This document shows, piece by piece, positions 13,509-59,957 of a stretch of 64,000 nt of DNA. Both the position numbers and the translations under genes were made by a program. How positions within the stretch are numbered: position 1 is the first letter of the stretch; each line of letters begins with the position of its first letter. The DNA lies in the NCBI RefSeq assembly GCF_022539505.1, contig NC_061510.1, positions 399,572,249 through 399,636,248 of the forward strand, in the 5' to 3' direction. The notes below the pieces were generated by a model. The model did no database searches. It had not been told where the DNA came from and was given only the letters and a program-made list of their open reading frames with translations. The DNA comes from Lolium rigidum (lineage: Eukaryota; Streptophyta; Magnoliopsida; Poales; Poaceae).

Positions 13509-16500
13509 TGTGGTGACCCGACATACCACTGCATGGTGTAGTATGCAAGTCTGATATAACACCAATGAAACACCGTTCCACTAGTATTATATCGCTCAGA
13601 GTGGTACAACAGAAACATATGCGGGTCCAAGGCATGTCTGTAGAATTACAATAATGACTCTGTTACATAAGATCATCACAGCCTCCTACTTTACAATGAG
13701 GTAACACTGCAATTAAACTTCAGAAGAACGACTCGTAGTATAGTCCTATCACGAACTCTATTTGTAGAGTATTTAACTAGCTATAGAGGCTAAGCATAGA
13801 TTCTAGCTAAGTAGGAGCTAGGTTTAGGAAGCTAGTTCCCTTCTATGGCTAAACTAGGTTTTTTCCTTTCTGGATGTGGTATCTGACTCCTCTAGTAGGG
13901 TTCTGTCCCTTGAAGTAGTTATTGACTCCTCGGCCTTCGAGTTGCACTGTAGATCCTCCTTTGATGCCTCCATATCTAAGCAGGGGATTTAAGAGTGGGA
14001 TGAGTACGAGCGTACTCAACAAGTTCATTATAGGAAAGAGGTGTTTAATGCACTAGCTACGGCATTAGACCAGAAAGTCTAATACCAATGCAAGTTTTCA
14101 TAACCATTTCTTCAAAAGGTTGTTTTTATTCAGAAGAACTATGTCCGTCAGCCTTCACCGGTTGACTAGAACTTCATGGAGTTCCTTTCCGGCGGCGTTC
14201 GCAGTTCCATATCCCGGAACAGGGAGTGACAGTTCACGATTCATTACTCTCTGCAGAGGTGTGTTGCTTTACCCATAAGAGATCTTAACCTTGGTGCCAA
14301 CCGAGCTGCAGGCTCGTCCACACTTCCTTTGGTGTGAGGCCCGGTATAAGGTCATAACCAATCATATTCCTCCGCTACCTCGCACACCCACCCTTTGTTG
14401 CATACCCCGACCCTGGGTCCTCGCCGGTCCTCTTATACCAATTAAGGATGGACCCCGACCACGACGACAGTTTGGGACTCGTTAACCAAACTCCTTCGCC
14501 GGTAGCTGCAACCCATCATAGACCACATTACCGTGGGGAATTAGAAGGGGATCCCCACCCTCTAGTTGTTCCGCAAGCAGTAACCGCTACGGTAAGCATT
14601 GCATTACCGTGGGGAATTAGAAGGGCTCCCCACCCTCCAGTTACTCCGCAAGACACAACCGCTATGGTAAGCGCATCCGTTGATGTACAAGAGGTGGAAA
14701 TACGATTGACTATTCTGTCCCACTCCAGATCTTATGGTTAACACGGGTATTACGGCACAAGAATCACTGGACGACATTTGTTGTTTAATCCTAGATGGAT
14801 ATAAACCCTTGCAATGGAACCTCCACCATATCAACACAATCCATGGTTCCATTGCCCACCACTTAGTCATATTCATAGTTATGAAAGTAGTGATTTTGCT
14901 TTTTATGCAATAGTGATAAACATAGTACTTTGCAAGTAATTTGGTAAAAATACTCAAATGACATGAGCAAGTGATGAACTTGCCTTTCTTGACTGCAAGA
15001 TTATGCAGACAAGGTCTTCGATACGCAATAACTCCAAATTCTGAAATAGCATCATCGTCCGGTAAGGACGATGTTTGAAAGATTGGCAAGGATGCAATAA
15101 TGCATAAGATGAGATGCAATCGCTCTAAGCGTGACCTAACCCCGATGATTTAGGATTAGTGAGTTGTATTGAGTAGTTTAGGGTGTGTTGTACTTTTAGA
15201 GTGATTCACAAACATGGTTCTTATTCAGGGTTGTGTTGTTTTAGAATCATAAGCAGGTGGTAAAATAATAGTAGTTGTATAATAAGTAAAGTGTAGTTGT
15301 CAATTTTAGGTCCTAAAATGCATGGTTGATGATTACTTATTATATAATTCAAAGGAATAACTTTTGAAGAACATGTTCTATAATGGAGAACAAGTATGAT
15401 AATTAGTTTTGTGGGATTCTATGGTTTCCTATGGTTCTAATTGGTTTCTGGAGTAAGTAGTAGATGGATCACATCCTAGTTGGATTCATCAATACCAAGG
15501 GCTTGTAAGGTTGAGTTAAGCCTAGGCATCTTGAGCAATTTATTATAAATAGTTGCTATCAAAATTGGTTCATCATGTTGGGGATAGCTAGCTAGGGTTT
15601 ATAGGTCCTTATAAGCAGGGTTGATGATGGTTCTTTATTTACTTCAAAAGAATAACTTTTGAAGAACATACTTCTTAAGTAATAAGAAGTATTGCAATTA
15701 GGGTTGAGGTGGTTTAGGTTTTACTGTTGGTTCTATTAAGTAAGGAATAATTGGCTCCTAAATAGGATGGTGGATAAGTATCCAACACTAATAGGGTTTA
15801 GTAGACTATGGTTATGTAATGCTCAATATTTGGCTTGGTTGCTCCTAAGGTTCATCATATTGGTGTGATGCTAAATAGGAATGAATAAGGGTGATGGCTT
15901 TGGTAATAGGACCTAGGGTTTACACTTGGTTGTCCTTACTTGATTATTTAGGTCTGATGAAGATGAACACATGGGATACCCATGTATTAGTGATAGGTCT
16001 TCTACATTTTATGTGGCCAGGACAAGTATTTAGTTGCTACTATGGTTCTATGTTTTGAAAGAAGGTACCATGATCACATGTTCTAACCTAGAGTTTAGGT
16101 TAGAAGCAATTTAAGTTTCATATTGATTATTGGAGCTAGGATTCCTAATTGAATTAGGGTGTTGGGATTACACATAAAATGATGAGGTTATCACTTTATT
16201 TATAATGGAACTAGGGTTTCCTAATTACCCTATAATTCTTGGATTAATAACTTCATTAGTAAAGTTGAAGTTATTAATAACTTTGAAATGAAAATAATAT
16301 TGGATTTGACATTTTCTTATTTTTAAAGAATTATTAATTAAGACAATTATTAATTAGGGTTTAAATCCTCCTATTAAGGATTTAAGAAATTATAAGCAAA
16401 GGAAAATTAGTTTTAATATTTTCCTGATTTGCTTACTGGTTTTATTAATTTTAGAAGTTTTTCTTAATTATTGAATTTTAATTAAATTTGGAATTAAAAT

Positions 16501-19500
16501 TAAAGGCTTAATTAACAAGTATTAATAATTGAATTTTTATTAAAAATAAAAATTTCATATTATATTTTTACTGGAAAGAGTTTTCTTTTCTAAGAATTTT
16601 GATATCTTATTTATATTTTTCTGAGTTATAAATAATTTTCTAAATTATTTCAAAGTTGCAGATCTTTTCTGGATTCAAATAACAAATAATTGCTAAAGCT
16701 ACCCGGCCAGGATACACCCACAGTCCATGACTAGTGGGGTCCTAGCCACGTCACACGCCACACGGTCATTGACCGGGGTCAAAATCGATGACCTGGCGCT
16801 GGAGCTCACTGCCGGCGATCCAGTCGTCGACGGCGACGGCGATGTGGTGCTCCCGCGGACGCGCTATTGGGCTCAATCGACTTGCCGTGACCAGGTGAAC
16901 CTTATGGCGGCGGTGCCGCTGGCTAATGGTCACCGGAGATCACTCCGGTGAGTGTCTCCACGGCGGCAAACTACGGTGAGGTATCAAATTGGAGCTAGGA
17001 TGCATGCTAGGCAATAAATAAGGGCTCAATCGACGCGCAAGCTCACCCTGATAACGTTGGTGTGATCGTCGAAGTCGATGATGGCCGGAGGCGAGCTTAC
17101 CGTCGCGAATTCCGGCGAACTGCCTCGGATGAAATCGACGGAATTCGCCTAGCTGAGATCACCCCGGGCCAATTCCTCTCGTGGGCGTAGCTTGTCGAGG
17201 ACGGTGGTCACGGTGGTGTGCTCGGCTTGGCTCGGGAAGGCTTCAGTCGCCGGCGGTAATGGAGACTGGGGTGGCCAGGGTTTCGGCATGGGGTGAAATG
17301 GAGCAGAGGAAGAAGAAAGGGAGACTAGGGTTCGTCCAGGGGTCTTTATACTGCACGGGAGCACGCCTCGTCACACCATCGAGCAAGGAGGAGGCGCCAG
17401 CGCTGAGGAGAAGAGGAGCACGCCGTCGTGCTGTCCACCATGCGAGGAAGAGGATGAGGACGATCTCCTGGCGTGGATATTTCCTTGAAGGGGTATGTTG
17501 GGCCGGGCTGGGCTGCACTGCAGGCTGCTGCTGGGCTGCCGAGGTGGGCTACTGCGGCCAGGTAAGCCTTTTTCTCTCTTTCTTTTTCTCCTATATTTTC
17601 TGTTTTGTATTTGCTCATTTAAATTCATATTTGAATTCTGTTATTTTTGCAGGTTTCTTAATTATGTAAATTCCATTAGAATTTAGTGCAATGATTATTA
17701 CCGCACTATTCTATTTTAACACGTATTTTATATTGGATTATATATTGCCTACTTTTGGATTTATTCAAAATATCAAATAGGCATGAATTTATATTCTCAT
17801 TTTTTAATTTCATGTTTTTCTTGTGAATCAATCTGTTTTGAATTGTTGGAGTTGAGTATTTCTACTCTAAGGATTTTAGGAGTTATCATTAGGGTTGGAT
17901 CTATTAATTGAGAATTTGGTCACTTGCATATGATTTTATGTGAGCCTATTTGTTAGGGTCTTATAATTATTATTATCATCCTATTTCAATGTTATCACTA
18001 TTCTTATCTTTGAAAATATCTAAGGTAGATATTGTTTCCAGAATGGTTTGGTCTTGTTTACAAGGTTAAGTGGTTGATTACCACACATGGGTTTAAGTAA
18101 AGGGTTTAACATCAGGTGCTTCTTATGTTCAATAATTGAAGCATAAGGTTTAATTAGAGTGCAACACTAGGGTTCTATTTATATTTACCTATTGACACAT
18201 GAGTTGAAACTCAACTGTTGCCTAGGTTTTTATTGTGATCAAATAAGTGATATACAAACTAGGGTTGAGGTATAGTTCTAAGTTGTAGATATGGGATGAC
18301 ACCATGGTGCATTGGCTAGGGTTTAATCTCCCCTAACCATGTTAATATGGTTACTTGCTTCATATCTTATGTGCTTCTCTAATCACTAAGGATTTGAGAA
18401 TTGGTTTTATCTTCTACCAAACACTTCTATTAATATCCTTAATTTATCATTAAAGTAACTACATTAGTTATAGTTCTTTTTATAGTTAACTTTGGTCATA
18501 TGAATGTATGGTTTCTCACCATATAAAGTATAGAGTTTAACTAAGGTTTGCTTAGATTCTTCAATTTATGAAATATAGATGTGGTAGGATTCTACTTATG
18601 ATTACCATGTGGTTCACAAGTTAAAATTAGGATATAAGCCTAGGGTTGCTTACTAGTGATCTCCCTATGATTTCATGTGGGGAATAATATCTACTAATCA
18701 TATAAGGGTTAGCATTTGGATTATTCTTCTATTTCCCAAAGCATGGTCATGGATTAGGCATGATCCACTTGTTCTTAATACCTCTACCTCAAGTTCTTAG
18801 GGTTTATGATCATCACTCAATTTATAATGATCAAGGTTTGGATTCCTAAAGTATCTCTCACTAAATAGGTTTCTCACTTCCATGATCAAGCATTGTCTTG
18901 ATCAACTAAGGTATAGTACTTCTAATTTACCTTCTTGAATGGGACTGCTATGGTTGCCTTATTAGTTTATATCCCAGGAGAATGCTTGAGATATTACTTA
19001 GGGTTCTTTCCAGGGAATGATGATATAATCATCTGGGTGTATGGATAGTTCTTTCCCTCAAATCCAAGTGTTGCCTCACTAACTTGAGTGTAACACCATA
19101 ACTTAATCTCCCTCATAAATGAATAGTTATTCTAGGGTTTAGGATGTACTCTTAATATCTTCTTAGGTATCTAGGCTAAGACTCCACTTGGCTATCTTGG
19201 TTGAATTAATCTCATTCTTACTTTATCAATTCATGGATATAATCTTGTTTCACTTGATATTAGGTTATCTCACCACTCCAAGGGAAATGGTTTACAACCT
19301 AATACTTTAGTTCAAAGGTTATCCTTTATTCTTAAATAGGTCAAGCTAGAATTAGTATGATTGGTCTCTCTCATTTGGGAAGGTCTTCAATACTAACCTA
19401 AGGTTAGGCTCCATAGAGAATGATGTTGTCACCAATATCTATAGTTAACATAAATGGGTCCTCTCTCTAGGAAATGTCTTGAATAATATCCTAGGGTTCC

Positions 19501-19764
19501 TCTTAAAGATGATGATTTGAATACTTGGATGTATATCCAAGGTTTAGCTCAAGGTTTGTTGCTTCTCTAATAATTATTATAGAAATCTCACCTCTCTAGA
19601 TTTGATGTATAATAATATGGAATAGAGAAGAATATATATTTCTAGAGTTGATCTCCTTGTCATGTTTCCAAGAATGAAGTAAAATGAATACCATGAGGTT
19701 CATGGTAGGGTCAAGGATTAGTTTAAGCCATGGAAAAGATAAGTGAAGAATAGTTTCTCCAATT
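13509..19764 (-). repeat. 3' LTR of X (left copy), truncated
   Basis: Contains the unique outer part 13509-14262 and the shared part 14263-19764. AT-rich over much of its length, with a GC-rich island at 16700-17530 holding open frames on both strands. These frames are conserved between the two LTRs simply because the LTRs are near-identical, and I do not call them genes. It ends abruptly at 19764/19765, where Y2 sequence begins. Confidence 0.85.
17342..17350 (-). promoter_or_regulatory. TATA box of X LTR (left copy)
   Basis: The minus strand reads CAGTATAAAGACCCC in a GC-rich context. The identical site in the right LTR is at 24134-24142. It is the best candidate for the core promoter of the LTR and marks the end of a very long U3 region. 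Confidence 0.5.
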
Positions 19765-21026
19765 TTTATAGACACCGGCATCGGGAAGATAGCGCGGGAA
19801 CATGCTAGATGGCGATGTTGTGGATGTCGAAGGGTGTCCCGCCGGGCGTGCCAGAATGTGTTGACGTCAGAAACCCCCTGGCGGGCAGAGACGGGCAACA
19901 CCGTAGAGCCGGGAACAACTAGGGCTGCGGCTGGCCCCAGTCCCTCAGAGCGACGGCCCGCAAAGCCTCTTGGTCGCACGTCCGATGCTATCGCAAGGGC
20001 GTGCCACCTGACCTATACCTGGTCCGGAAGGTGTGGATGATGCCTCGCTTAGTTTCCTGCAGGGCACACACGTAAACGTTAAATACGAGCCTCGATCGGC
20101 TCTCAGGTTATCCTGCGAATCGGCTCAAAGAGCCGATTCACCCATGATTCGAGACAAGGTGTCCGAATATATGGTGGTCCCGCTTGATCAAGATAAAGCT
20201 GATTAGATCTACAACGATTTAGGGTTTTCACCGCATAATCGGATCATCCTACTCACGATTGGGCCTCGCGCTCGCGCACGGTGACCGTAAGCCGATCCTA
20301 GACAGGGCCTAAAAACCAACACGAGGTTGATCCCCAGAACATCCTCTCTAGGGCTAGCGAACGCCACCCTACACGCCGCTGGATCCTCCAACCCTTTGTA
20401 AGGCCTAACTATTGCGGATGTTAAACTAATCCTTGATGAAACAAGGAGCAACCGTAACGGATCAGATCTACTAAACTATGATCAAGCGGGTGCCGCCCCT
20501 ACACCTAAGATAGGTGTAAGGGCGGCTAGACATGCAAGGGTCGCACTACGATAGCATATTATACGAGGAACAATGCTAACCCTAACATGTCTAAGATAAC
20601 TACGTTGCTCGCCATCAAAAAGGCTTCAGCACGAGCAACGCATGAACAACGGGGATAGGCATTACGCTGCCTAGATCGCAAGATGCGATCTAGGCAGCAT
20701 GGTGCTTACCGGTAGAAACCCTCGAGACGAAGGAGTTGGCGATGCGCCGAGATTTGTTTTGGGGTGAACGTTGGTTGTTGTTTATTCCATAAACCCTAGG
20801 TACATATTTATAGTCCAGGGGACTTTCTAATGTGGGCGTGCACTAAATCGTGCACAGGTAAAACTCTATCTTCTAATCTAAGATGCGATCTACTATGTTA
20901 CAGATACACGGGCAGTTTATCCCAACTTGGTATAAAAGGCCGATTCACGTATCTCTCCTAAATATAATCTTCAAGCCCATCTTGATCGCGGCCCACCTCT
21001 GACTTGGTCAAATTCTGGTGATAACA
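19765..21026 (-). mobile_element. Gypsy element Y2, 5' LTR and a stub of internal DNA
   Basis: The LTR 19859-21026 has the same termini as the Y1 LTR (TGTTATCACC... and ...CAACA). Internal leader 19765-19858 includes the same TGGCACGCCCGG primer-site context. The rest of the element is missing: the internal DNA is joined directly to the left X LTR at 19764/19765. It inserted in the right X LTR, not between two intact LTRs. Confidence 0.8.
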
Positions 21027-24000
21027 GTTGCTTTACCCATAAGAGATCTTAACCTTGGTGCCAACCGAGCTGCAGGCTCGTCCACACTTCCTTTGGTGTG
21101 AGGCCCGGTATAAGGTCATAACCAATCATATTCCTCCGCTACCTCGCACACCCACCCTTTGTTGCATACCCCGACCCTGGGTCCTCGCCGGTCCTCTTAT
21201 ACCAATTAAGGATGGACCCCGACCACGACGACAGTTTGGGACTCGTTAACCAAACTCCTTCGCCGGTAGCTGCAACCCATCATAGACCACATTACCGTGG
21301 GGAATTAGAAGGGGATCCCCACCCTCCAGTTGTTCCGCAAGCAATAACCGCTACGGTAAGCATTGCATTACCGTGGGGAATTAGAAGGGGCTCCCCACCC
21401 TCCAGTTACTCCGCAAGACACAACCGCTACGGTAAGCGCATCCGTTGATGTACAAGAGGTGGAAATACGATTGACTATTCCGTCCCACTCTAGATCTTAT
21501 GGTTAACACGGGTATTAAGGCACAAGAATCACTGGACGACATTTGTTGTTTAATCCTAGATGGATATAAACCCTTGCAATGGAACCTCCACCATATCAAC
21601 ACAATCCATGGTTCCATTGCCCACCACTTAGTCATATTCATAGTTATGAAAGTAGTGGTTTTGCTTTTTATGCAATAGTGATAAACATAGTACTTTGCAA
21701 GTAATTTGGTAAAAATACTCAAATGACATGAGCAAGTGATGAACTTTCCTTTCTTGACTGCAAGATTATGCAGACAAGGTCTTCGATACGCAATAACTCC
21801 AAATTCTGAAATAGCATCATCGTCCGGTAAGGACGATGTTTGAAAGATTGGCAAGGATGCAATAATGCATAAGATGAGATGCAATCGCTCTAAGCGTGAC
21901 CTAACCCCGATGATTTAGGATTAGTGAGTTGTATTGAGTAGTTTAGGGTGTGTTGTACTTTTAGAGTGATTCACAAACATGGTTCTTATTCAGGGTTGTG
22001 TTGTTTTAGAATCATAAGCAGGTGGTAAAATGCATAGTAACTGTCATACACGCCCAAGAATAGTAGTTGTATAATAAGTAAAGTGTAGTTGTCAATTTTA
22101 GGTCCTAAAATGCATGGTTGATGATTACTTATTATATAATTCAAAGGAATAACTTTTGAAGAACATGTTCTATAATGGAGAACAAGTATGATAATTAGGT
22201 TTGTGGGATTCTATGGTTTTCTATGGTTCTAATTGGTTTCTGGAGTAAGTAGTACATGGATCACATCCTAGTTGGATTCATCAATACCAAGGGCTTGTAA
22301 GGTTGAGTTAAGCCTAGGTATCTTGAGCAATTTATTATAAATAGTTGCTATCAAAATTGGTTCATCATGTTGGGGATAGCTAGCTAGGGTTTATAGGTCC
22401 TTATAAGCAGGGTTGATGATGGTTCTTTATTTACTTCAAAAGAATAACTTTTGAAGAACATACTTCTTAAGTAATAAGAAGTATTGCAATTAGGGTTGCG
22501 GTGGTTTAGGTTTTACTGTTGGTTCTATTAAGTAAGGAATAATTTGCTCCTAAATAGGATGGTGGACAAGTATCCAACACTAATAGGGTTTAGTAGACTA
22601 TGGTTATGTAATGCTCAAGATTTGGCTTGGTTGCTCCTAAGGTTCATCATATTGGCGTGATGCTAAATAGGAATGAATAAGGGTGATGGCTTTGGTAATA
22701 GGACCTACGGTTTACACTTGGTTGTCCTTACTTGATTATTTAGGTCTGATGAAGATGAACACATGGGATACCCATGTATTAGTGATAGGTCTTCTACATT
22801 TTATGTGGCCAGGACAAGTATTTAGTTGCTACTATGGTTCTATGTTTTGAAAGAAGGTACCATGATCACATGTTCTAACCTAGAGTTTAGGTTAGAAGCA
22901 ATTTCAGTTTCATATTGATTATTGGAGCTAGGATTCCTAATTGAATTAGGGTGTTGGGATTACACATAAAATAATGAGGTTATCACTTTATTTATAATGG
23001 AACTAGGGTTTCCTAATTACCCTATAATTCTTGGATTAATAACTTCATTAGTAAAGTTGAAGTTATTAATAACTTTGAAATGAAAATAATATTGGATTTG
23101 ACATTTTCTTATTTTTAAAGAATTATTAATTAAGACAATTATTAATTAGGGTTTAAATCCTCCTATTAAGGATTTAAGAAATTATAAGAAAAGGAAAATT
23201 AGTTTTAATATTTTCCTGATTTGCTTACTGGTTTTTATTAATTTAGAAGTTTTTCTTAATTATTGAATTTTAATTAAATTTGGAATTAAAATTAAAGGCT
23301 TAATTAACAAGTATTAATAATTGAATTTTTATTAAAAATAAAAATTTCATATTATATTTTTATTGGAAAGAGTTTTCTTTTCTAAGAATTTTGATATCTT
23401 ATTTATATTTTTCTGAGTTATAAATAATTTTCTAAATTATTTCAAAGTTGCAGATCTTTTTTGGATTCAAATAACAAATAATTGCTAAAGCTACCCGGCT
23501 AGGATACACCCACAGTCCATGACTAGTGGGGTCCTAGCCACGTCACACGCCACACGGTCATTGACCGGGGTCAAAATCGATGACCTGGCGCTGGAGCTCA
23601 CTGCCGGCGATCCAGTCGTCGACGGCGACGGCGATGTGGTGCTCCCGCGGACGCGCTATTGGGCTCAATCAACTTGCCGTGACCAGGTGAACCTTATGGC
23701 GGCGGTGCCGCTGGCTAATGGTCACCGGAGATCACTCCGGTGAGTGTCTCCGCGGTGGCGAACTACGGTGAGGTATCAAATTGGAGCTAGGATGCATGCT
23801 AGGCAATGAATAAGGGCTCAATCGACGCGCAAGCTCACCCTGATAACGTTGGTGTGATCGTCGAAGTCGATGATGGCCGGAGGCGAGCTTACCGTCGCGA
23901 ATTCCGGCGAACTGCCTCGGATGAAATCGACGGAATTCGCCTAGCTGAGATCACCCCGGGCCAATTCCTCTCGTGGGCGTAGCTTGTCGAGGTTGGTGGT

Positions 24001-26923
24001 CATGGTGGTGTGCTCGGCTTGGCTCGGGAAGGCTTCAGTCGCCGGCGGTAATGGAGAATGGGGTGGCCAAGGTTTCGGCATGGGGCGAAATGGAGCAGAG
24101 GAAGAAGAAAGGGAGACTAGGGTTCGTCCAGGGGTCTTTATACTGCACGGGAGCACGCCTCGTCACACCATCGAGCAAGGAGGAGGCGCCGGCGCTGAGG
24201 AGAAGAGGAGCACGCCGTCGTGCTGTCCACCATGCGAGGAAGAGGATGAGGACGATCTCCTGGCGTGGATATTTCCTTGAAGGGGTATGTTGCGCCGGGC
24301 TGGGCTGCACTGCAGGCTGCTGCTGGGCTGCCGAGGTGGGCTACTGCGGCCAGGTAAGCCTTTTTCTCTCTTTCTTTTTCTCCTCTATTTTCTGTTTTGT
24401 ATTTGCTCATTTAAATTCATATTTGAATTCTGTTATTTTTGCAGGTTTCTTAATTATGTAAATTCCATTAGAATTTAGTGCAATGATTATTACCCCACTA
24501 TTCTATTTTAACAAGTATTTTATATTGGATTATATATTGCCTACTTTTGGATTTATTCAAAATATCAAATAGGCATGAATTTATATTCTCATTTTTTAAT
24601 TTCATGTTTTTCTTGTGAATCAATCTGTTTTGAATTGTTGGAGTTGAGTATTTCTACTCTAAGGATTTTAGGAGTTATCATTAGGGTTGGATCTATTAAT
24701 TGAGAATTTGGTCACTTGCATATGATTTTATGTGAGCCTATTTGCTAGGGTCTTATAATTATTATTATCATCCTATTTCAATGTTATCACTATTCTTATC
24801 TTTGAAAATATCTAAGGTAGATATTGTTTCCAGAATGGTTTGGTCTTGTTTACAAGGTTAAGTGGTTGATTACCACACATGGGTTTAAGTAAAGGGTTTA
24901 ACATCGAGTGCTTCTTATGTTCAATAATTGAAGCATAAGGTTTAATTAGAGTGCAACACTAGGGTTCTATTTATATTTACCTATTGACACATGAGTTGAA
25001 ACTCAACTGTTGCCTAGGTTTTTATTGTGATCAACTAAGTGATATACAAACTAGGGTTGAGGTATAGTTCTAAGTTGTAGATATGGGATGACACCATAGT
25101 GCATTGGCTAGGGTTTAATCTCCCCTAACCATGTTAATATGGTTACTTGCTTCATATCTTATGTGCTTCTCTAATCATTAAGGATTTGAGAATTGGTTTT
25201 ATCTTCTACCAAACACTTCTATTAATATCCTTAATTTATCATTAAAGTAACTACATTAGTTATAGTTCTTTTTATAGTTAACTTTGGTCATATGAATGTA
25301 TGGTTTCTCACCATATAAAGTATAGAGTTTAACTAAGGTTTGCTTAGATTCTTCAATTTATGAAATATAGATGTGGTAGGATTCTACTTATGATTACCAT
25401 GTGGTTCACAAGTTAAAGTTAGGATATAAGCCTAGGGTTGCTTACTAGTGATCTCCCTATGATTTCATGTGGGGAATAATATCTACTAATCATATAAGGG
25501 TTAGCATTTGGATTATTCTTCTATTTCCCAAAGCATGGTCATGGATTAGGCATGATCCACTTGTTCTTAATACCTCTACCTCAAGTTCTTAGGGTTTATG
25601 ATCATCACTCAATTTATAATGATCAAGGTTTGGATTCCTAAAGTATCTCTCACTAAATAGGTTTCTCACTTCCATGATCAAGCATTGTCTTGATCAACTA
25701 AGGTATAGTACTTCTAATTTACCTTCTTGAATGGGACTGCTATGGTTGCCTTATTAGTTTATATCCCAGGAGAATGCTTGAGATATTACTTAGGGTTCTT
25801 TCCAGGGAATGATGATATAATCATCTGGGTGTATGGATAGTTCTTTCCCTCAAATCCAAGTGTTGCCTCACTAACTTGAGTGTAACACCATAACTTGATC
25901 TCCCTCATAAATGAATAGTTATTCTAGGGTTTAGGATGTACTCTTAATATCTTCTTAGGTATCTAGGCTAAGACTCCACTTGGCTATCTTGGTTGAATTA
26001 ATCTCATTCTTACTTTATCAATTCATGGATATAATCTTGTTTCACTTGATATTAGGTTATCTCACCACTCCAAGGGAAATGGTTTACAACCTAATACTTT
26101 AGTTAAAAGGTTATCCTTTATTCTTAAATAGGTCAAGCTAGAATTAGTATGATTGGTCTCTCTCATTTGGGAAGGTCTTCAATACTAACCTAAGGTTAGG
26201 CTCCATAGAGAATGATGTGGTCACCAATATCTATAGTTAACATAAATGGGTCCTCTCTCTAGGAAATGTCTTGAATAATATCCTAGGGTTCCTCTTAAAG
26301 ATGATGATTTGAATACTTGGATGTATATCCAAGGTTTAGCTCAAGGTTTGTTGCTTCTCTAATAATTATTATAGAAATCTCACCTCTCTAGATTTGATGT
26401 ATAATAATATGGAATAGAGAAGAATATATATTTCTAGAGTTGATCTCCTTGTCATGTTTCCAAGAATGAAGTAAAATGAATACCATGAGGTTCATGGTAG
26501 GATCAAGGATTAGTTTAAGCCATGGAAAAGATAAGTGAAGAATAGTTTCTCCAATTATTGTTACTTGATTTCCAATTAAATGGTTGTTCATATGTTATGG
26601 CATGGAACATTATGTTGTGATCTTTAATAAGATCAAGTAGTTGGTCCTTGATTAATAAGTTCTTGTGTTGATTTTAATTCCATTTGATCTAAGCCCTTAG
26701 ATCAACTTATCTCTACCCGAAACAAGGTTTTAGCAAAGTCACATTAAGGTTTATAGCACTGGACTTGATGAGCTACTTCAATTCCACCAAGGTCAAGTGA
26801 AACTTCAGTTACTGTGACTGTTTTACTTTAAAGCGCGAAAATTTCCCTGATTTTCTATGCATGAATGCAATACACACATCTGTTTCCTCTATTTTTTATA
26901 ACCCCAATACCTGGGATACTACA
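21027..26923 (-). repeat. 5' LTR of X (right copy), truncated
   Basis: The shared part 21027-26554 matches 14263-19764 with about 1% or fewer substitutions in the stretches I compared by eye. It has one 28-bp extra segment at about 22032-22059 (gcatagtaactgtcatacac... type) absent from the left copy. The unique part 26555-26923 completes the LTR start. Its missing end was displaced by the Y2 insertion, whose target duplication is gttgc (21027-21031; the same bases are at 14263-14267). Confidence 0.85.
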
Positions 26924-27247: not shown

Positions 27248-28620
27248 CTAGTTCTCTATCGACGGATCTTGGACGTGCCCTGCAAATATAACTGCGCCGG
27301 TCACCTCCTCCACTATGAAGTATGCAAAGGGATGGTCAGCTACAAAATCCACCCCAGGAGGTGGCGACTCCGGCATATCACATCCATACTCAAAATCCGT
27401 AAAGGTGACTGCCGCTGCTTCGGTGCCTTCCTCGTTTACCTCGATGACCGCCTTGTGGATGATGTCGTTCAAGACTGTTGGCAAGCTAGAGTCATCAGGC
27501 TCTACCATGTCAGACAGATCGGCTTGATCACCGAACGGCAATTTAAGCCCTAGCTTCTCAAGAATAGTGACGACGCTGCTTTCGAAGGACATCTTAAACT
27601 TGGGCACCCGGAATTCGTCAACTTCGACCTTCTCCTTGGGCAGGTGTTCGTGTAGGAAGCCAGGCTGTGATGCTATCATGTCAACTAGGTCCGGCAAGCC
27701 ATCATGGTCATCTGGAAGGAAGATACACATAGAGAACTTCGTGCGCTTGTTACGACCAGAGGACATCCTCTTACGCTTCTTACGATTAGAGGATACATAG
27801 CCTGTCAACATGTCAGCATAACAGAATGATGTCGTATATATAATCGGAGCACCCATAGTGTGGGATAACAGGCAAGATTGAAAGGATCAACACACTAGCC
27901 AAACGGATTACCTTGCGGAACTGCCATCTCATACCGGAGTTTGAGCACCTTGAACCCATCATGCACGGCGATGAACTGGGACGACAGGCTCTTCATGAAC
28001 GGCGTGTCGATGGTGCTGCCGTCCAGCCGGTAGAAAAGCTTGTCCTTGGTGCGCTTCTCGTTGAAGGGATTAACCCACTTGCCCTTGAAGTATACGGCGT
28101 TGCCGAGCACGACGCGGGTGAGCGGCGTGATCAATCCCGGACCAAAGACGGAACCGATCAGATATTGCGTGGCCTCTGCGACCCATGCGTTGATCTGGCC
28201 CCGTGCCGCCTCCGGATTGCTGATGAAGTCGACGCTGCTGGCCTCGGCGCTGAACTTGTCCACGACGGTGCGGCGGTAGGCGGCCTTCAGCGGGCACGTG
28301 AGCTCGCTCCACACGCCGCACGCGAACGCGATGCGTGGACCGCCGGCGCCGGACTCGTCCTTGAGCGCGGTCTCGACGACGCCGGCGACGGACTCCTCGA
28401 GCTCGCCGCGTGACCGCGCGCCCACCACGCGGAGGATCTCGTCCAGGGTGGCGCCCCGGGCGCCGGCTGCCAGGAGCGCCAGCGCGGCGTAGATGGACAG
28501 CGGGGAGAACACCAGGTTGCTGTCCGCGTTCTCCTCGGCCAGGCACCTCGCGAGGCCGGCAGAGAGCGCCGCCAGGCCGCCAGTGTCGGCCTGCGCCGTC
28601 GGCTTCCTCGGCACTTCCAT
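27248..28620 (-). CDS. Serpin (plant serine/cysteine protease inhibitor), two exons, 420 aa
   Basis: Exon 1 is 28620-27912 and exon 2 is 27801-27248; the 109-bp intron (27911-27802) has GT/AG ends and keeps the frame. Family features: NLVFSPLSIYAALALLAAGA (about residue 34), VVLGNAVYFKGKW (about 190), FSMCIFLPDDHDGLPDL, hinge EEGTEAAAVT, and DFVADHPFAYFIVEEVTGAV near the C-terminus. Serpins trap target proteases by inserting the cleaved reactive loop; plant ones usually act in the cytosol, and no signal peptide is seen. Two oddities: a Lys/Arg-rich extension of about 20 residues right after the intron, and a reactive loop without the common Leu-Arg. Length is slightly above the usual ~395. 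The gene looks intact. The CACTA 3' end lies only 115 bases beyond the stop. Confidence 0.88.
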
Positions 28621-29574: not shown

Positions 29575-30911
29575 TCCGTCTCCTTGTCCCGCTCGTTCGA
29601 TTTCTTCGATCGGTTATGTAATGTGCTTTTCAATCGATCAATCATGCAGAGCTTTTGGATACCTGGTTTGTAGGGAATTTGTTTTCCAGGAACCTACTAC
29701 TCGGATAACTGACTAACCAACTAAATCCTGTTATTTGCATGTAGCGACAAAAAAAAACTTCTCAATTGCACATGTGCCGCAACTAAGATATTTTAGTAAA
29801 AATTGCATGGGTTTGCAGCAGGTTTTTGTTTTCCTAATTACCGCATAGGTTGAAACTAATATTTTGCCCAGTGGAGTCATAACTGATTTTTTTTAGAACA
29901 TGGCTAATTCCCGGTTGAGCTGAGAATTAGCTTAATTCCTGGTCAACCTGGTTTCATGTGTAATTTACATGCAACTAAGGTAAAGGATATGCAATTGCAC
30001 ATGTATGTACAATTACACATCCATATGTAATTCTTCTATGCACGAATCACGATGCAAATCTAACGGCTATCGAGTTGATCTGAAATTAATTTAATTCCCA
30101 ATCAATCTGGAATTAGCAAAAGAGTTATTTTTATGGGAGATAAAAAATTTGAAGCATGTGTCTCCCACTTTCTAGTGTCTCCGATTGCTTTTCCTAAGTG
30201 GAAAGTGTCGGCGTTGCTATGGAAGCAAAATGACCGAAAATAACCTTGTCCAGCCTATCAGCACCTTACATAGGAAAAGCCCATGAGCTAGAAGGCCCAG
30301 CATACCAAAAAGAAACATGCCGTATATTTTTTTTTGATAAAGGGAATATATTACTCCTAGTTTCTGCAACAACGAAAAAGGTCCCGCTACGGTATTCCAG
30401 CCCTAGCAGCAATAGTACATCCACCATCAAGACAACACGTGAACTCTAGGCTCTCCAAAAACAACGCCTCCAAGAAGAGAATAGTGCACAAGCGTCGTCG
30501 TCGTCTGATCGAAAGATCTTAAGTATTTACCCTGAAGATGGTCTTCACTCTTAAAACGATGTCTTCAACAAGACCATTACCAGGCACAACCTTAAAGTCA
30601 GACCTTAGATTTTCATCCTGAGAGGTAAGACTTCGAACTTCACCTGTGCTGCCGCCCACATATGCATACTCATGCTGCGAATTCCAGAATACCAAGCAAG
30701 TCCTCAACAACGGAGAGACTCAAACCTTTAATCGTTAATCCTCGAATCCGGCCTTCATGATATTCTTCGCTTCTGATTTTACCATGGACAAAAAGTAATA
30801 CTAAAAAAGAAACAACATGTATCACTAGTTCAGCCGATCGATCGTGAGTTAAGTGCCATGTCAGGCTAGTCACCTGAGCTCCCGGTGTGCCCAATGAAAA
30901 GACTAGCGATG
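29575..30911. other. Intergenic, old repeat debris
   Basis: No supported gene. A poly-T run followed by 'gataaagggaatatatta' (30327-30354) resembles the reversed 3' tail of a LINE. Positions 29930-30009 occur again, identical, at 46846-46925. The stretch 30010-30911 has no counterpart in the second copy of the block, where a Copia element replaces it. Confidence 0.5.
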
Positions 30912-31215
30912 GTACATCTAATTTACCCAAATCCTTTGGATTGCACCACACCACCAGGCGTCCACGCTGGATATATACCTGAGACCGAGGCATATAGTTT
31001 AATCAAGGAATAATGATGCCGAGATATGGAAAGTACATCCATATATAGCATACCTTATTATCAACAAAATCAATTACTGTTTGATAGTATATCGAAGACC
31101 TCCACAGAAAAAAACAATTAAGTGCCATGAGTTATGGAAGAATGAAGGAAATTAATTAATTTTGAGCTGTACTCGTAGGTTAAGTTAATGAATTTCCTTG
31201 GTTAAAAAGATAGGG

Positions 31216-32060
31216 GATTTTTTTTACATAAACATACCTCTTTATTCAATCAAAATAGAAGTTACATCATTGACTAGAAAAGGTACAATAGAAACTGGGG
31301 GCTCATCTAACCAGACTTGTTGATCAGATCCACGAGCTAGCCTAGCTAATTCATGAGCTACCGAGTTTGCTTCATGAAAATTATGTTCAAACTTAACCTT
31401 TCAAAATTTGAAAACCCGGTCCTCCCTCATTGCTTGGACCAACATTGAGACTATCAACATCATACAACTCTGTTGCATCAAACTGTTTGAGCCAAAATTA
31501 AATCTTGTTTTAAGGCCAACAATTAACACGCCGTAGACAAATTTTAACTTGTTATTACTCGCGGCAACGAAGTTTCCGCAACTATCACTGATTACTGGGC
31601 CTATAGTGCCTGGGAGAACATCTGTCTGCAGGCCTTTGTCTAACTATTTCTTCGCAACTTCGGTTTAGGAGAATGAGCACTAAGAAAGTTAGAATATAGT
31701 GCTCCAATAGTCATGGCCGTACCTGCTAGGTCCTTCACCTTTTCACCATGAGTAGCTTGCCGTCGCTCCCACCAGAGGTACCATCTTCCGATTGCGATTA
31801 GTTCAGGTATAGTTGACTGTCCCAATGTCATAGAAAAGTTATGTTCAGAACATAAAAGATATTCTAAAACAGCTTGTCTCGTGCGATCATTGATACAATT
31901 AAGCTTGATCGATTAATTCCTCCAACCCAAGCTTTCTCCAAATAGGCTGGCGCGTAAGCAATGGAATAGCATATGCTTTGTATCTTCCACTCCAATCTCA
32001 CAAATAGGACATTATGCGCTAACTTTGATATGTTTGTTTGCTTGGCATGGTTTAGAATTC
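31216..32060 (-). pseudogene. LINE 3' remnant (zinc-finger RT tail and RNase H), copy 1
   Basis: Minus-strand reading gives CPICEIGVEDTKHMLFHC (about 32015-31960), then 'ELIAIGRWYLWWERRQATHG' (about 31810-31750) and an RNase-H-like end with 'FEHNFHEANSEAHELARLAR' (about 31390-31330). It closes with a poly-A tail seen as T8 at 31218-31225. This is the 3' part of a plant L1-type LINE with stops and frameshifts. The insertion pre-dates the segmental duplication because both copies carry it at the same place. Confidence 0.75.
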
Positions 32061-32138
32061 CAGATTTACCAAACCTTGTCTGTGTGATTTTCACGCGTGG
32101 TGAGATGGCAACTTTTATTTTTTCCCACGGATTTTTCT

Positions 32139-32148
32139 GCCACGTGGC
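32139..32148. promoter_or_regulatory. G-box palindrome upstream of vWA pseudogene
   Basis: GCCACGTGGC, a 10-base perfect palindrome of the ABRE/G-box class (bZIP/bHLH sites), about 170 bases before the ATG at 32320, followed by an inverted CCAAT motif (tcattgg). Conserved at 54248-54257 before the intact gene. Confidence 0.45.
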
Positions 32149-32319
32149 TAATTCTCATTGGTTCGCTCGCGTAATCACCTCCAAAAGATATGCCCCGTGT
32201 GTACAATAAATTCCTCCCCAGTAAAGGACGCGTCTTGCTATCGTATTTAACCTGATGCCAAGCTAGGAATCGAGGCGCTCATCTCTCTCAATCTCAAGAA
32301 AATCGTTGGTGATCTCAAG

Positions 32320-33400
32320 ATGCGGCATGATCATGTGCACCTCTGTGTACTACTAGCACTCTTTCTGGTTTCTTGGACCCAAGGAGGGGATGGAGCAACA
32401 CACGTAAGTTGTACATGATTCTTTTTTGAAATTATTTCTTCGATCTACAGACTTGCGATTACAAGTTTGATCATTGTAATCCAACAAGTAATATTATTTA
32501 GTCAAGCTTCCAGATCTTCATGTTCAATTTAGGTTACTGCGACCTTGCTAACTTGTTCGTATCAATTTCCGCAGCACCCTGCAGTGATGGGGGGCAGTGA
32601 TCAGGTAATATTGGGGGAATTCTCTGCTAACGTTTGATTTTTCCTACTGTACTAATAGGATACAATGATCACTGCCCCCCATCACTGCAGGGTGCTGCGC
32701 CTGTTGGAGCTGGCGGCCGGTTGGCCGTCACCTGCTCGTCGTCATCGAAGACGACGACCGGATCCACCGTCTGGCTGTGCCGTTGCCAATACTGCAGGAT
32801 TCAGGCAGCGACACCGTTCTGGTGAACGTGGTGTGCAGCTACAGAGACGCCGCGACCGGCGGGGACGTCAGCGTGACGGCGGAGAATGCGGTGGTGGCGA
32901 GGCCAGAGGACGCATGTGAAGCGGAGCGGTCGGCGGAGGTGGAGCGGGAGCGCGTGCGGGTGCAGGCGGCGGAGGACATGGCGGCCGCGCGGGCGGCGGC
33001 GGAGCAGGGCGCGCACGAGGAGGCGGTGAAGATATTGGAGAAGCGGGAGCGGCTGGTGGCGCAGTCGTCGGTGGATGGCGACGCGGTGATCGTCGGGCTG
33101 GCCGGCGAGCTGCGGGAGATGCGGGAGCGCGTGTCTAGCCGAGAGAGGTACGAAGGGTCAGGGCGGGCGTATGTGCTCGCCGGCATGAGCGCGCACGCGC
33201 AGCAGCGTGCCAACTCAAGGCAGCAGCAGGAGTCATTTGAGTCGTTCGGCGAGGCGGCGGCAGACGAGGCGACGACGTTGTCGTACGCTACGCCGGCCAT
33301 GCGCGCCATGCTTCGGCGCTCGAGGGGAGCGTCTGTGGAGCAGAAGGTGCGCGAGTCTGGAGATGAAGTCTCACAGAGTTATTATGGAGTGCCACTACTA
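32320..33400 (+). pseudogene. vWA-domain gene, rearranged copy 1
   Basis: Exon 1 (32320-32403, signal-peptide-like MRHDHVHLCVLLALFLVSW) and the 30-base exon 2 (32575-32604) match the intact gene at 54429. After the next intron the locus is scrambled. Positions 32666-32698 are an exact inverted copy of exon 2 with its flanks, and 32694-32800 are an inverted copy of the start of exon 3 (54814-54920; 2 differences). Then the sequence jumps to the C-terminal part of exon 3 (from about 32810, equal to 55830 onward). About 900 bases holding the vWA core with its metal site are missing. The remaining frame encodes only the C-terminal domain (EEAVKILEKRERLVAQ region to SQSYYGVPL). Short shared bases (gctgc, ggatt) are at the joints. 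No functional vWA protein can be made. Confidence 0.88.
32571..32698. repeat. Perfect 33-bp inverted repeat inside vWA pseudogene
   Basis: Arms 32571-32603 and 32666-32698 are exact reverse complements with a 62-base loop. The arms are exon 2 of the vWA gene and its inverted copy. A transcript through here would form a strong hairpin. Confidence 0.92.
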
Positions 33401-33425
33401 GTACAGTTAATCATTTCAAAACGGA

Positions 33426-34277
33426 GATTGCTACCACTAGTAGTAATCGATTGGGTAGGTAGGCGCGCAACACCGTGCCGCTTCGCTAGCTCCGCTCCGT
33501 CTGGAAAAACCCGTCCCGTCCCGTCCCGTCCCGGCCGCACCGCTTCCGCTCCGATGACACAGCAGTGGCGGACGTCTGTCTCTCCACGGAACCAGTTCCT
33601 CCCTCATAAACTGCTTCTTTTCTCCTTGCCGCGCCAGGACAAAACATGCATCCATCCTTTCATTTCATTGCTAGCTAAATAAAGTCTTTTCTATCAACTG
33701 GCCATCAATTAAGCGCTGCCCGATCAGTGTGGGGCGTCCGTAATTAATTATGCGCTGACCAAATACGTTCTGGCTCTCATCGATCCATCCGTGCGTGCGT
33801 GCGTCACGTGCTACGCGTTATGCATGCATGCTGCACAACTACTCCAATGCAAAATCGGTGGGATTAATTTCCTTTTTCTTCTCCATTCATTCATTTCAAA
33901 AAAAAAACGTACGCAGTCCAGCTCATTAATTTATTTATTTATTATATAATCGGTACTGTACGTCCGTAATTAGCAGCTACTACCTGCTACCAAACTTTAT
34001 TCAGTGTACGTAATTGGATCCGGACACAGCTCCATTTTTGCTCAAAGATTAGTCGCTGTTGGCGCGCCGTACGTCGTGATTCCATCCATCACGAACTATC
34101 TATCTACTAGTACCTACTACTCACGTGTGCTCAATCATATATATTACAAGTTTTATTTCCCTCCGTCTGCGCTTAATTATTACTAACATATTTATATCAC
34201 AAACCCGCCCCTAGAAGCACTCCTTACTGGATTAGCAACAAATCCGTGGATATGACTCTTTTCTAAATTCAATACCC
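33426..34277. other. Intergenic, no gene seen
   Basis: Holds a short (CCCGT)n tract at 33509-33533 and AT-rich DNA around 33900-33950. Open frames here do not resemble known proteins. Confidence 0.5.
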
Positions 34278-51476: not shown

Positions 51477-51782
51477 GGTACATCTAATTTACCCAAACCC
51501 TTTGGATTGCACCACACCACCAGGCGTCCACGCTGGATATATACCTGAGACCGAGGCATATAGTTTAGTCAAGGAATAATGATGCCGAGATATGGAAAGT
51601 ACATCCATATATAGCATACCATATTATCAACAAAATCGATTACTGTTTGATAGTATATCGAAGACCTCCACAGAAAAAAACAATTAAGTGCCATGAGTTA
51701 TGGAAGAATGAAGGAAATTAATTAATTTTGAGCTGTACTCGTAGGTTAAGTTAATGAATTTCCTTGGTTAAAAAGATAGGGG

Positions 51783-52625
51783 ATTTTTTTTACATAAACA
51801 TACCTCTTTATTCAATCAAAATAGAAGTTACATCATTGACTAGAAAAGGTACAATAGAAACCGGGGGCTCATCTAACCAAACTTGTTGATCAGATCCACG
51901 AGCTAGCCTAGCTAATTCATGAGCTTCCGAGTTTGCTTCATGAAAATTATGTTCAAACTTAACCTTTAAAAATTTGAAAACCCGGTCCTCCCTCATTGCT
52001 TGGACCAACATTGAGACTACCAACATCATACAACTCTGTTGCATCAAACTGTTTGAGCCAAAATTAAATCTTGTTTTAAGACCAACAATTAACACGCCGT
52101 AGACAAATTTTACCTTGTTATTACTCGCGGCAACGAAGTTTCCGCAACTATCACTGATTACTGGGCCTATAGTGCCTGGGAGAACATCTGTCTGCAGGCC
52201 TTTGTCTAACTATTTCTTCGCAACTTCGGTTTAGGAGAATGAGCACTAAGAAAGTTAGAATATAGTGCTCCAATAGTCATGGCCGTACCTGCTAGGTCCT
52301 TCACCTTTTCACCATGAGTAGCTTGCCGTTGCTCCCACCAGAGGTACCATCTTCCGATTGCGATTAGTTCAGGTGTAGTTGACTGTCCCAATATCATAGA
52401 AAAGTTATGTTCAGAACATAAAAGATATTCTAAAACAGCTTGTCTCGTGCGATCATTGATACAAGCTTGATCGATTAATTCCTCCAACCCAAGCTTTCTC
52501 CAAATAGGCTGGCTCGTGAGCAATGGAATAGCATATGCTTTGTATCTTCCACTCCAATCTCACAAATAGGACATTATGCGCTAACTTTGATATGTTTGTT
52601 TGCTTGGCATGGTTTAGAACGGATG
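51783..52625 (-). pseudogene. LINE 3' remnant, copy 2
   Basis: Same remnant as at 31216-32060, with the T-run at 51783-51791. Slightly better preserved: the zinc-finger and RNase-H-like parts each read through about 95-105 codons on the minus strand. It lacks four bases present in copy 1 (near 31898). It is interrupted at 52619 by the Mutator-like element. Confidence 0.75.
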
Positions 52626-54155
52626 AAGCCTGGTAACCGGATGGGTAGCTGCGCATGCCCCTAAAAGCTGACACGTGTCTAACACCGCTAGTTGTCCGTG
52701 ATGCTTCTCTGACTCGTAGCACTGTGATTAGGTCCCCCTCCCACTGCCCCCCTCCACGCCACTCATCTCCTATCCTTCCCAACCACACCCCTAATACACA
52801 ACAGATGGTATCGACCGACCGCTGCCGCCGGCTGGCCTCGCGTGGCCGCGCCCCCAACGCCACCCAGCTAGCTCCTTTCCAGGAACCCTCCGACGCCGTT
52901 CCTACCGTCACCGGCCTCACCTACCTCGCCGTGATGGCCACCAAGCTTTTTCTTCTTCAAGGATTCTCCCCATTCCCGGCTACTGCGCTACTAGTCGCTG
53001 CCTTCGTTCTCACCGCCAGCCCACAACAGCGCCACCGCAACAACGCACCAAAGAAAAGAAAGCAAAGCAATGGAGCCGGCGAGCAGTCTCCCCGTCCCCC
53101 TGTAGCACTCCCCTCCCCATACCTTCTACGGCGTCGGCTTCGCCAAGCTCCTCCCTGTAAGAGGTGCGTGCGGATCATTTCTTGCTTCTTCTTTCTGGGC
53201 GGGCGTGGGATTGACTCTGCTCCGCGTCGCCCAGATCTCGTGGCTCCGCCGCCTCTCTCGGACCTGGACGGGCTCTTGCACGCGATTTGGTTTCCGCCGG
53301 CTGCCTTGGAGATCAGCTCGCGCCGCTCCGCCCTGTTGATTTAGTATCGAGTCTGTCAATGCGTCCTCTCAAAGAGGGCTAACAGAGGGAAGATAACTGC
53401 GCTTGATTCTTCTTGGATGCTGCGATCGCCATCGATTTGCTAGGAGCATGTTTTAATTATATTGATGCTTCTGGCGTTAGCAGAACCAGGAATGGTGGTG
53501 TCTTCGTCAAGATGGTCATGGCGGCCGGCGGCGTTCGACGGAGTGTTGCTGACTGGACGGACTGTCCGGCGGTGGGATTCCAAAAATGGCTACGGCGAAC
53601 GCCGGATCAAGCGGTTGGCTCGATTCAGTGCAGGGTTGGGGCTCACGCGTGTGGGCAAGGCCAGCTTCGATTCCTTTCCATTGACTCCATTCCTTTTCAT
53701 GCTTGATTGGATCTTGTTCTGTACATGTTCTCAGATTGGAAATTGCTGCTAGTTGTTTCCAAAAAATTCTATCTTTCTCAGATTTATTTTGTATTAATTA
53801 TGATTGATGTAGGATGAGCTGCTGATTTGATTTATATGGAAGCCATCGGTCCTAATTTACTAAAATTAGCGTCTTCCAGTCCTATAGTGGATTAGCGCTA
53901 TAGATTTAATGGAGAGAGAAAATAATCTCTTGACAAGAAGCAAAGTATCCGCGGTACCATTTTTCTATTCTCTCTCCGTGGAGTAGGTTACACGCACATG
54001 CATTTTTAGCAGTTCTTTTTTGTCACCATATGGGCAGACTCTTGCATGAACCGTGTACTTGCCGTTAGTCGGCAAATCAATCCAACGGTGCTAAAAAATA
54101 TCCAACGACGCTGCATGCATGCGTAGCTACCCATGTGACTACCAAATCCACTCTC
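52620..54155 (+). mobile_element. Mutator-like element (Pack-MULE candidate), 1536 bp
   Basis: Flanked by a 9-10 bp direct repeat tggtttagaa (52610-52619 and 54156-54165), present once at the matching uninterrupted site in copy 1 (about 32050-32059). Its ends are imperfect inverted repeats: ATGGGTAGCTGCGCATGC near 52643-52660 versus ATGGGTAGCTACGCATGC read inward from the right end (54116-54133). A 9-bp duplication is the signature of Mutator-type transposition. No transposase is seen. The interior is GC-rich and gene-like, as in Pack-MULEs that carry captured host gene pieces. Confidence 0.75.
52655..53344 (+). CDS. Open frame in the Mutator-like element, 229 aa, captured-gene-like
   Basis: Starts MPLKADTCLTPLVVRDASLT. 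The region 52800-53340 has the base composition of a grass gene 5' end. Alternating basic and Pro-rich segments (residues about 55-70, 120-165) surround one hydrophobic stretch (about 87-118, 'YLAVMATKLFLLQGFSPFPA'). A possible donor (tgtaagagg, 53155-53163) suggests the original exon ended inside this ORF and that the rest reads through an intron. I do not recognise the source gene. More likely a captured fragment than a working gene. Confidence 0.35.
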   Translation: MPLKADTCLTPLVVRDASLTRSTVIRSPSHCPPPRHSSPILPNHTPNTQQMVSTDRCRRLASRGRAPNATQLAPFQEPSDAVPTVTGLTYLAVMATKLFLLQGFSPFPATALLVAAFVLTASPQQRHRNNAPKKRKQSNGAGEQSPRPPVALPSPYLLRRRLRQAPPCKRCVRIISCFFFLGGRGIDSAPRRPDLVAPPPLSDLDGLLHAIWFPPAALEISSRRSALLI

Positions 54156-54165
54156 TGGTTTAGAA

Positions 54166-54428
54166 TTCCAGATTTACCAAACCTTGTCTGTGTGATTTTC
54201 ACGCGTGGTGAGATGGCAACTTTTATTTCTTTCCACGGATTTTTTCTGCCACGTGGCTAATTCTCATTGGTTCGCTCGCGTAATCACCTCCAAAAGATAT
54301 GCCCCGTGTGTACAATAAATTCCTCCCCAGTAAAGGACGCGTCTTGCTATCGTATTTAACCTGATGCCAAGCTAGGAATCGAGGCGCTCATCTCTCTCAA
54401 TCTCAAGAAAATCGTTGGTGATCTCAAG
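54166..54428 (+). promoter_or_regulatory. Upstream region of the intact vWA gene
   Basis: About 263 bases between the Mutator-like element and the ATG. It contains the G-box palindrome GCCACGTGGC (54248-54257), an inverted CCAAT motif (about 54266-54271) and a weak TATA-like gtatttaac (about 54352-54360). Nearly the same as 32060-32319 in copy 1. The transposon has moved everything farther upstream about 1.5 kb away. Confidence 0.45.
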
Positions 54429-59857: not shown

Positions 59858-59957
59858 NNNNNNNNNNNNNNNNNNNNNNNNNNNNNNNNNNNNNNNNNNN
59901 NNNNNNNNNNNNNNNNNNNNNNNNNNNNNNNNNNNNNNNNNNNNNNNNNNNNNNNNN
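59858..59957. other. Assembly gap (100 N)
   Basis: Exactly 100 N inside V internal DNA. A round number suggests a gap of unknown true length. Confidence 1.

Follow-up and report, generated by a model that had tools for sequence, protein, structure and literature searches.

The closest described systems are templated insertions at DNA breaks and small RNA loci derived from duplicated genes. In persimmon, OGI is a pseudogene produced by segmental duplication that carries an inverted repeat of sequence from its paralogue, gives rise to 21-nt RNAs and silences MeGI (PMC7048303, PMC9459113). In poplar, psi-ARR17-IR comprises incomplete, inverted duplicates of ARR17, which survives whole at another site; these are predicted to form a hairpin and give rise to 24-nt siRNAs, with methylation of the target (PMC9636151, PMC9459113). 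YUP of Mimulus, a small RNA locus that arose when a coding gene was duplicated incompletely or in inverted orientation, is known to affect petal colour; the gene it came from has no connection with pigment production (PMC12371187). Duplicated rice pseudogenes have antisense potential to their parents (PMC2708354), and inverted duplication has been described as an origin of miRNA genes, the foldback containing sequence of the parent (PMC3237417); both the rice small RNAs and the miRNA genes are defined by sequenced small RNAs. Outside plants, breaks in yeast are repaired with templated or filler insertions that include short foldback inverted insertions (mostly about 5–34 bp) and insertions made of two inverted pieces that share a single source locus: the pieces come from beside the break and their junctions carry microhomology (PMC11724301).

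The locus described here shares features with each of these systems. The window is a 64-kb stretch of the genome of annual ryegrass, Lolium rigidum (G000:C3:399572249-399636248), and within it copy A (32320-33398) is a broken duplicate of an intact neighbour, copy B (54429-56415), the two starts lying about 22 kb apart. On paper, copy A would work like a miniature OGI or the inverted ARR17 segments, with a stem of 34 bp. A search of one literature library for this locus found no paper. A further copy, C, is found some 1.8 Mb away (locus L009, 4167-6177), and its translation is the deposited protein P0002, from which the exon boundaries of B were transferred. B matches the deposited L. rigidum protein P0001 (528 aa, 'E3 ubiquitin-protein ligase WAV3-like') with 100% identity across 96% of the query, and Pfam finds vWA (PF00092) and Vwaint domains in both deposited proteins. 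A signal-peptide-like start is present in P0002 and in the DNA of B. The deposited model of B begins MRCAQTADP and omits exons 1 and 2, both of which are present in frame in the DNA (54429-54822), as in P0002. The features are as follows.

30911-32319, plus strand: 5' flank and promoter of A, 98.3% identical to 51477-52619, then 98.4% from 54156 on
32140-32147, plus strand: G-box of A
32320-32403, plus strand: exon 1 of A, signal-peptide-like MRHDHVHLCVLLALFLVSWTQGGDGATH, identical to B
32575-32604, plus strand: exon 2 of A in forward orientation, HPAVMGGSDQ; the hairpin's 5' arm spans 32570-32603
32605-32659, plus strand: 5' part of intron 2 of A, with branch-site-like TACTAAT at 32650; collinear with B up to here
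32660-32665, no strand: filler at the first junction, 3-6 nt without an assigned source
32666-32699, minus strand: inverted exon 2 short of its final base, with 5 nt of intron 1 (B 54679-54712, 34/34), which makes up the 3' hairpin arm
32690-32691, plus strand: candidate cryptic 3' splice site in a palindromic CTGCAG, 35 nt past the branch-site-like A; 82-aa product
32694-32800, minus strand: inverted copy of B 54814-54920 (105/107), comprising the last 9 nt of intron 2 and 98 nt from the start of exon 3
32796-33429, plus strand: 3' coding tail of A, Vwaint (PF14624), of a lineage different from the 5' half; reading frame open to 33682
32797-32798, plus strand: candidate cryptic 3' splice site in a second CTGCAG, leaving 3 nt of the inverted block; exon 2 and tail in frame, 332 aa
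52620-54155, no strand: MULE-like insertion of 1.54 kb upstream of B, with a 9-10 bp site duplication (GGTTTAGAA) at both ends
54429-54512, 54684-54713 and 54823-56415, plus strand: exons of the intact gene B, 569 aa by the P0002-like model

The 5' half of A retains the promoter motifs – CCACGTGG (32140) and TATTTAA (32244), both also found upstream of B – together with exon 1, exon 2, the intact exon 2 donor and roughly half of intron 2. A preliminary description had proposed that the G-box region and the first two exons were kept, and the alignment bears this out: 32048-32662 is 98.4% identical to B 54156-54769, with five mismatches in 610 ungapped sites between 32048 and 32660. Beyond this point A lacks the stretch of exon 3 that encodes the vWA domain. 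The predicted 332-aa product of A carries PF14624 only and lacks PF00092, which places A outside the vWA genes as judged by Pfam domain.

Between these halves lie the two inverted pieces, which share 6 bp (microhomology GCTGCG) and both derive from one 242-bp stretch (B 54679-54920); the tail and the end of the inverted block have a further 5 bp in common (microhomology AGGAT). The preliminary description had reported a perfect inverted exon 2 of 33 bp, and the match is in fact 34/34 (32666-32699 against 54712-54679). It had also reported 107 bp of inverted exon 3 with two differences: the match of 105/107 stands, but nine of the 107 bases are intron, exon 3 beginning at 54823 by the P0002 model. 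While its coordinates and counts were right to within a base or two, that description requires correction on the overlap of 6 bp and on the order of the pieces, which is wrong for a single inversion, as well as on the 3' tail (95% identical to B), whose history is other than that of the 5' half. A single inversion of exon 2, intron and exon 3 is impossible because the reverse complement of the block reads exon 3–exon 2; with the pieces misordered and the tail of different ancestry, simple inversion is ruled out.

The inverted repeat itself is no chance event. Its arms (32570-32603 and 32666-32699) are complementary at 34 of 34 positions across a spacer of 62 nt, and no second perfect repeat of this kind in the window exceeds 20 nt when the arms may be up to 1 kb apart (the runner-up has 20 nt). 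Perfect inverted repeats of at least 16 nt within 400 bp were absent from all five mononucleotide shuffles, and the longest within that distance in five other loci (46 kb) was 15 nt. Imperfect inverted repeats are frequent in the window (18 pairs, including that of A, with arms of at least 25 nt no more than 400 bp apart).

Comparison of the three copies shows that A is a mosaic. Upstream, divergence is 1.45% for A-B, 4.43% for A-C and 4.70% for B-C, and from promoter to intron 2 the corresponding values are 0.82%, 3.15% and 3.32%. In inverted exon 3 they are 1.92%, 2.88% and 0.96%, and in the tail 6.29%, 4.20% and 4.97% (5.52, 3.98 and 4.00% with the ends trimmed). Informative sites group A with B in 58 of 76 cases from 30911 to intron 2 and in 6 of 40 in the tail (Fisher p 1.9e-10), a test that omitted inverted exon 3 itself (where one of three sites groups A with B). 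Because grouping with B prevails before the junction and fails after it, the change of ancestry is located at the rearrangement. As judged from these site patterns, A is a B-like 5' half, sister to B, joined to an older and separate tail with inverted filler at the join. No closer donor of the tail was found among the 23 matches listed (20 of them at loci other than A, B and C): C (94%) and B (93%) are the nearest. Further relatives of the vWA-gene tail lie at 31.8 and 34.7 Mb of G000:C3 and at 97.5-100.8 Mb of G000:C7, where there are at least five matches within 0.2 Mb.

The arrangement in A is derived, since B, C and the distant paralogues at L010 and L011 are collinear in their aligned parts. 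Among the 11 genome matches listed for 32571-32800, the inverted layout occurs only in copy A's own. A site in exon 2 and another in exon 3 distinguish B from C within the copied sequence, and at both the inverted block has the base of B, which marks its template as a local one of A/B type. Over the whole 5' half A and B differ by 1.23% (21/1712 sites), which, at the grass substitution rate of 6.5e-9 per site per year, would place their split near 1 million years ago.

We propose, with a probability of roughly 0.7, that copy A is a scar of break repair with local template switching: a chimeric duplicate that has lost its vWA domain and is probably inert and functionless. The pathway may have been microhomology-mediated break-induced replication or a templated insertion of the polymerase-theta type. 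Forward synthesis would have reached the middle of intron 2, switched and copied exon 2 backwards (34 nt), jumped by way of the 6-bp microhomology to a second backward stretch, 107 nt of intron 2 and exon 3, and returned by way of the 5-bp microhomology to the forward tail of a vWA gene of older lineage. The inverted block would then be filler DNA and the hairpin in any RNA a by-product. Three switches, with microhomology at two, can produce the block. Junction microhomology is present at two of the three junctions (6 and 5 bp); at the first, where 3-6 nt have no assigned source, none that is convincing was seen. The insert is copied from nearby templates (34/34 and 105/107) and carries A/B-type bases, as expected of a templated insertion. 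Selection for a regulator need not be invoked to explain what is seen: microhomology at all but one of the three junctions, inverted templates from close by and halves that make a chimera. Unlike the yeast insertions, that of copy A is seen in one plant assembly, lies inside a gene duplicate and has one piece of 107 nt against foldbacks of mostly about 5–34 bp in yeast (PMC11724301). The junctions, the template sources and their order, the loss of the vWA domain, the mosaic divergence and the derived state relative to B and C are observed; the repair pathway, a history of one event and the lack of function are what we infer from them. Gene conversion at a separate time could have produced the tail mosaic instead, against a history of a single event.

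One alternative is that the inversion is an artefact of reads or assembly: there is a single assembly, built for a self-incompatible species from Nanopore and Illumina reads with Flye and Hi-C (PMC9664059). The stretch from A to B is, however, free of gaps (the sole N run in the window is 59858-59957), inverted exon 3 differs at two positions from B and C alike, and two non-collinear pieces joined by microhomology are unlike what a long-read foldback chimera would probably give; the assembly was, moreover, polished with short reads (PMC9664059). We regard an artefact as very unlikely. Another, that a transposon such as a Pack-MULE took up the fragments in inverted order, draws on the MULE-like element upstream of B, but a repeat scan of 31800-33600 found no terminal repeats flanking the inverted block and both pieces come from a single gene region, which leaves capture scarcely credible. 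The MULE-like insertion has, some 11 bp in from either end, 28-nt inverted repeats (82%), contains a reading frame (52655-53344) and sits about 270 bp upstream of the start codon of B; A and C have empty sites, and the insertion may alter the regulation of B. Elsewhere in the window are a direct repeat of 5.5 kb (14263-19767 and 21027-26559, 98.5% identity, together spanning 14263-26559), a minus-strand serpin gene that spans two open reading frames (27248-28620; split by an intron or a disruption) and a frame with the transposase-associated domain PF13963 (7484-8266), probably part of a DNA transposon.

The remaining alternatives give A a function, and they turn on how an RNA from its promoter would fold and be spliced. 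Such an RNA would contain a perfect 34-bp hairpin and be partly antisense to B and C: the 130 nt of 32570-32699 are computed to fold with the full stem at -86.3 kcal/mol (200 shuffles: -37.7 +/- 3.6; z -13.6; MFEI 1.31), in agreement with the RNA hairpin of 33 bp first suggested. The figure of about 135 antisense bases given with it is sound as a length (32666-32800), but not as one antisense stretch, for the bases form two non-collinear blocks that pair with B in an order unfit for one continuous duplex, and 58 of the 115 antisense 21-mers match the spliced coding sequence of B perfectly (40 of 115 for C). Plant MIRNA foldbacks are shorter than 300 nt with a near-perfect duplex, and by sequence that of A (130 nt, 34 bp, MFEI 1.31) is of this kind. 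A also has the make-up of an inverted-repeat pseudogene silencer, namely a paralogue pseudogene with an inverted repeat of target sequence, although with a stem of just 34 bp. Rfam gave no matches in the window at gathering scores, as expected for a newborn gene. Copy A might be a working or newborn silencer, along the lines of the siRNA source or antisense regulator that the preliminary description had suggested. A single 21-24 nt RNA, cut by a Dicer-like enzyme out of the 3' arm, would then silence B and perhaps C as OGI does MeGI; pairing of the 107-nt block with B mRNA could have the like effect. The strength of the perfect stem, the promoter motifs retained and the perfect antisense 21-mers are consistent with this, as are the rice gene-pseudogene pairs with antisense small RNAs; yet 21 of 38 such rice pairs lie within 10 kb (PMC2708354), against about 22 kb between the starts of A and B. 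The stem would probably accommodate roughly a single dicer product, the antisense blocks lack collinearity with B mRNA, and the 1.54-kb insertion sets the upstream regions of A and B apart, making their co-expression uncertain. Since the stem contains the acceptor at 32690, its use would delete the hairpin, as would that of 32797; splicing at 32797/32798 would leave 3 nt of the antisense blocks. Both changes private to A in inverted exon 3 are of C-to-T type at CG or CHG (2/2), a weak hint of methylation. Such changes make up 1/5, 0/2 and 1/14 of those private to A upstream, in the 5' part and in the tail, and 1/8, 0/3 and 5/20 of those private to B (with none private in the template of inverted exon 3), counts too few to conclude that there is a methylation-type signature. 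On balance we think a silencer unlikely.

As for splicing, an acceptor at 32658/32659 is unlikely, since it probably lies too near the branch-site-like A (3 nt). Use of 32690/32691 would drop most of inverted exon 2 and the hairpin and retain 110 nt of the antisense block; its 82-aa product has no Pfam match and no candidate in a database clustered at 90% identity, which makes this weak evidence of absence, and a small secreted peptide from this acceptor was rejected. Splicing at 32797/32798 would instead yield a vWA-less protein of 332 aa, with signal peptide and Vwaint tail, and several observations are in keeping with this: the donor is kept, the acceptor hexamer is the same CTGCAG as at exon 3 of B, the frame is restored, Pfam detects Vwaint in the product, and the tail is free of premature stops and frameshifts. 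Between the tails of A and B dN/dS is 0.43 (15 synonymous and 20 nonsynonymous changes, a synonymous excess; Fisher p 0.025), so that some constraint acted on these lineages, which also speaks against inertness; it may have acted before the rearrangement, or on B alone. Changes private to the tail of A (6 synonymous, 10 nonsynonymous) are indistinguishable from neutral (p 0.20), in keeping with an inert copy. Two more points tell against the repair scar: the frame of the tail is still open despite the lost stop, and divergence from B is not significantly lower in the inverted block than in the tail (p 0.21). Against a protein, the acceptor lies 142 nt from the branch-site-like motif, the resulting intron has 45% A+U versus 65% in B, the frame would be restored by chance one time in three, and the normal stop is lost. 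None of 68 protein matches is 100% identical (best 92%), although clustering of the database at 90% could hide one. We hold a coding role to be very doubtful. Equally doubtful is a combined reading, that of a newborn silencer of the OGI type before selection, in which one repair event would have made a promoter-driven perfect hairpin and the two CTGCAG acceptors would form a splice switch between antisense RNA and vWA-less protein.

Plant inverted-repeat silencers and some miRNA genes are assumed to have started out as hairpin-bearing pseudogenes. If copy A is inert, as the repair scar proposed here would be, it is a clean case of one repair event turning a duplicate into such a pseudogene. 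With A and B separated by about 1 million years, presence or absence of the rearrangement among ryegrass accessions could test the effect of a newborn hairpin.
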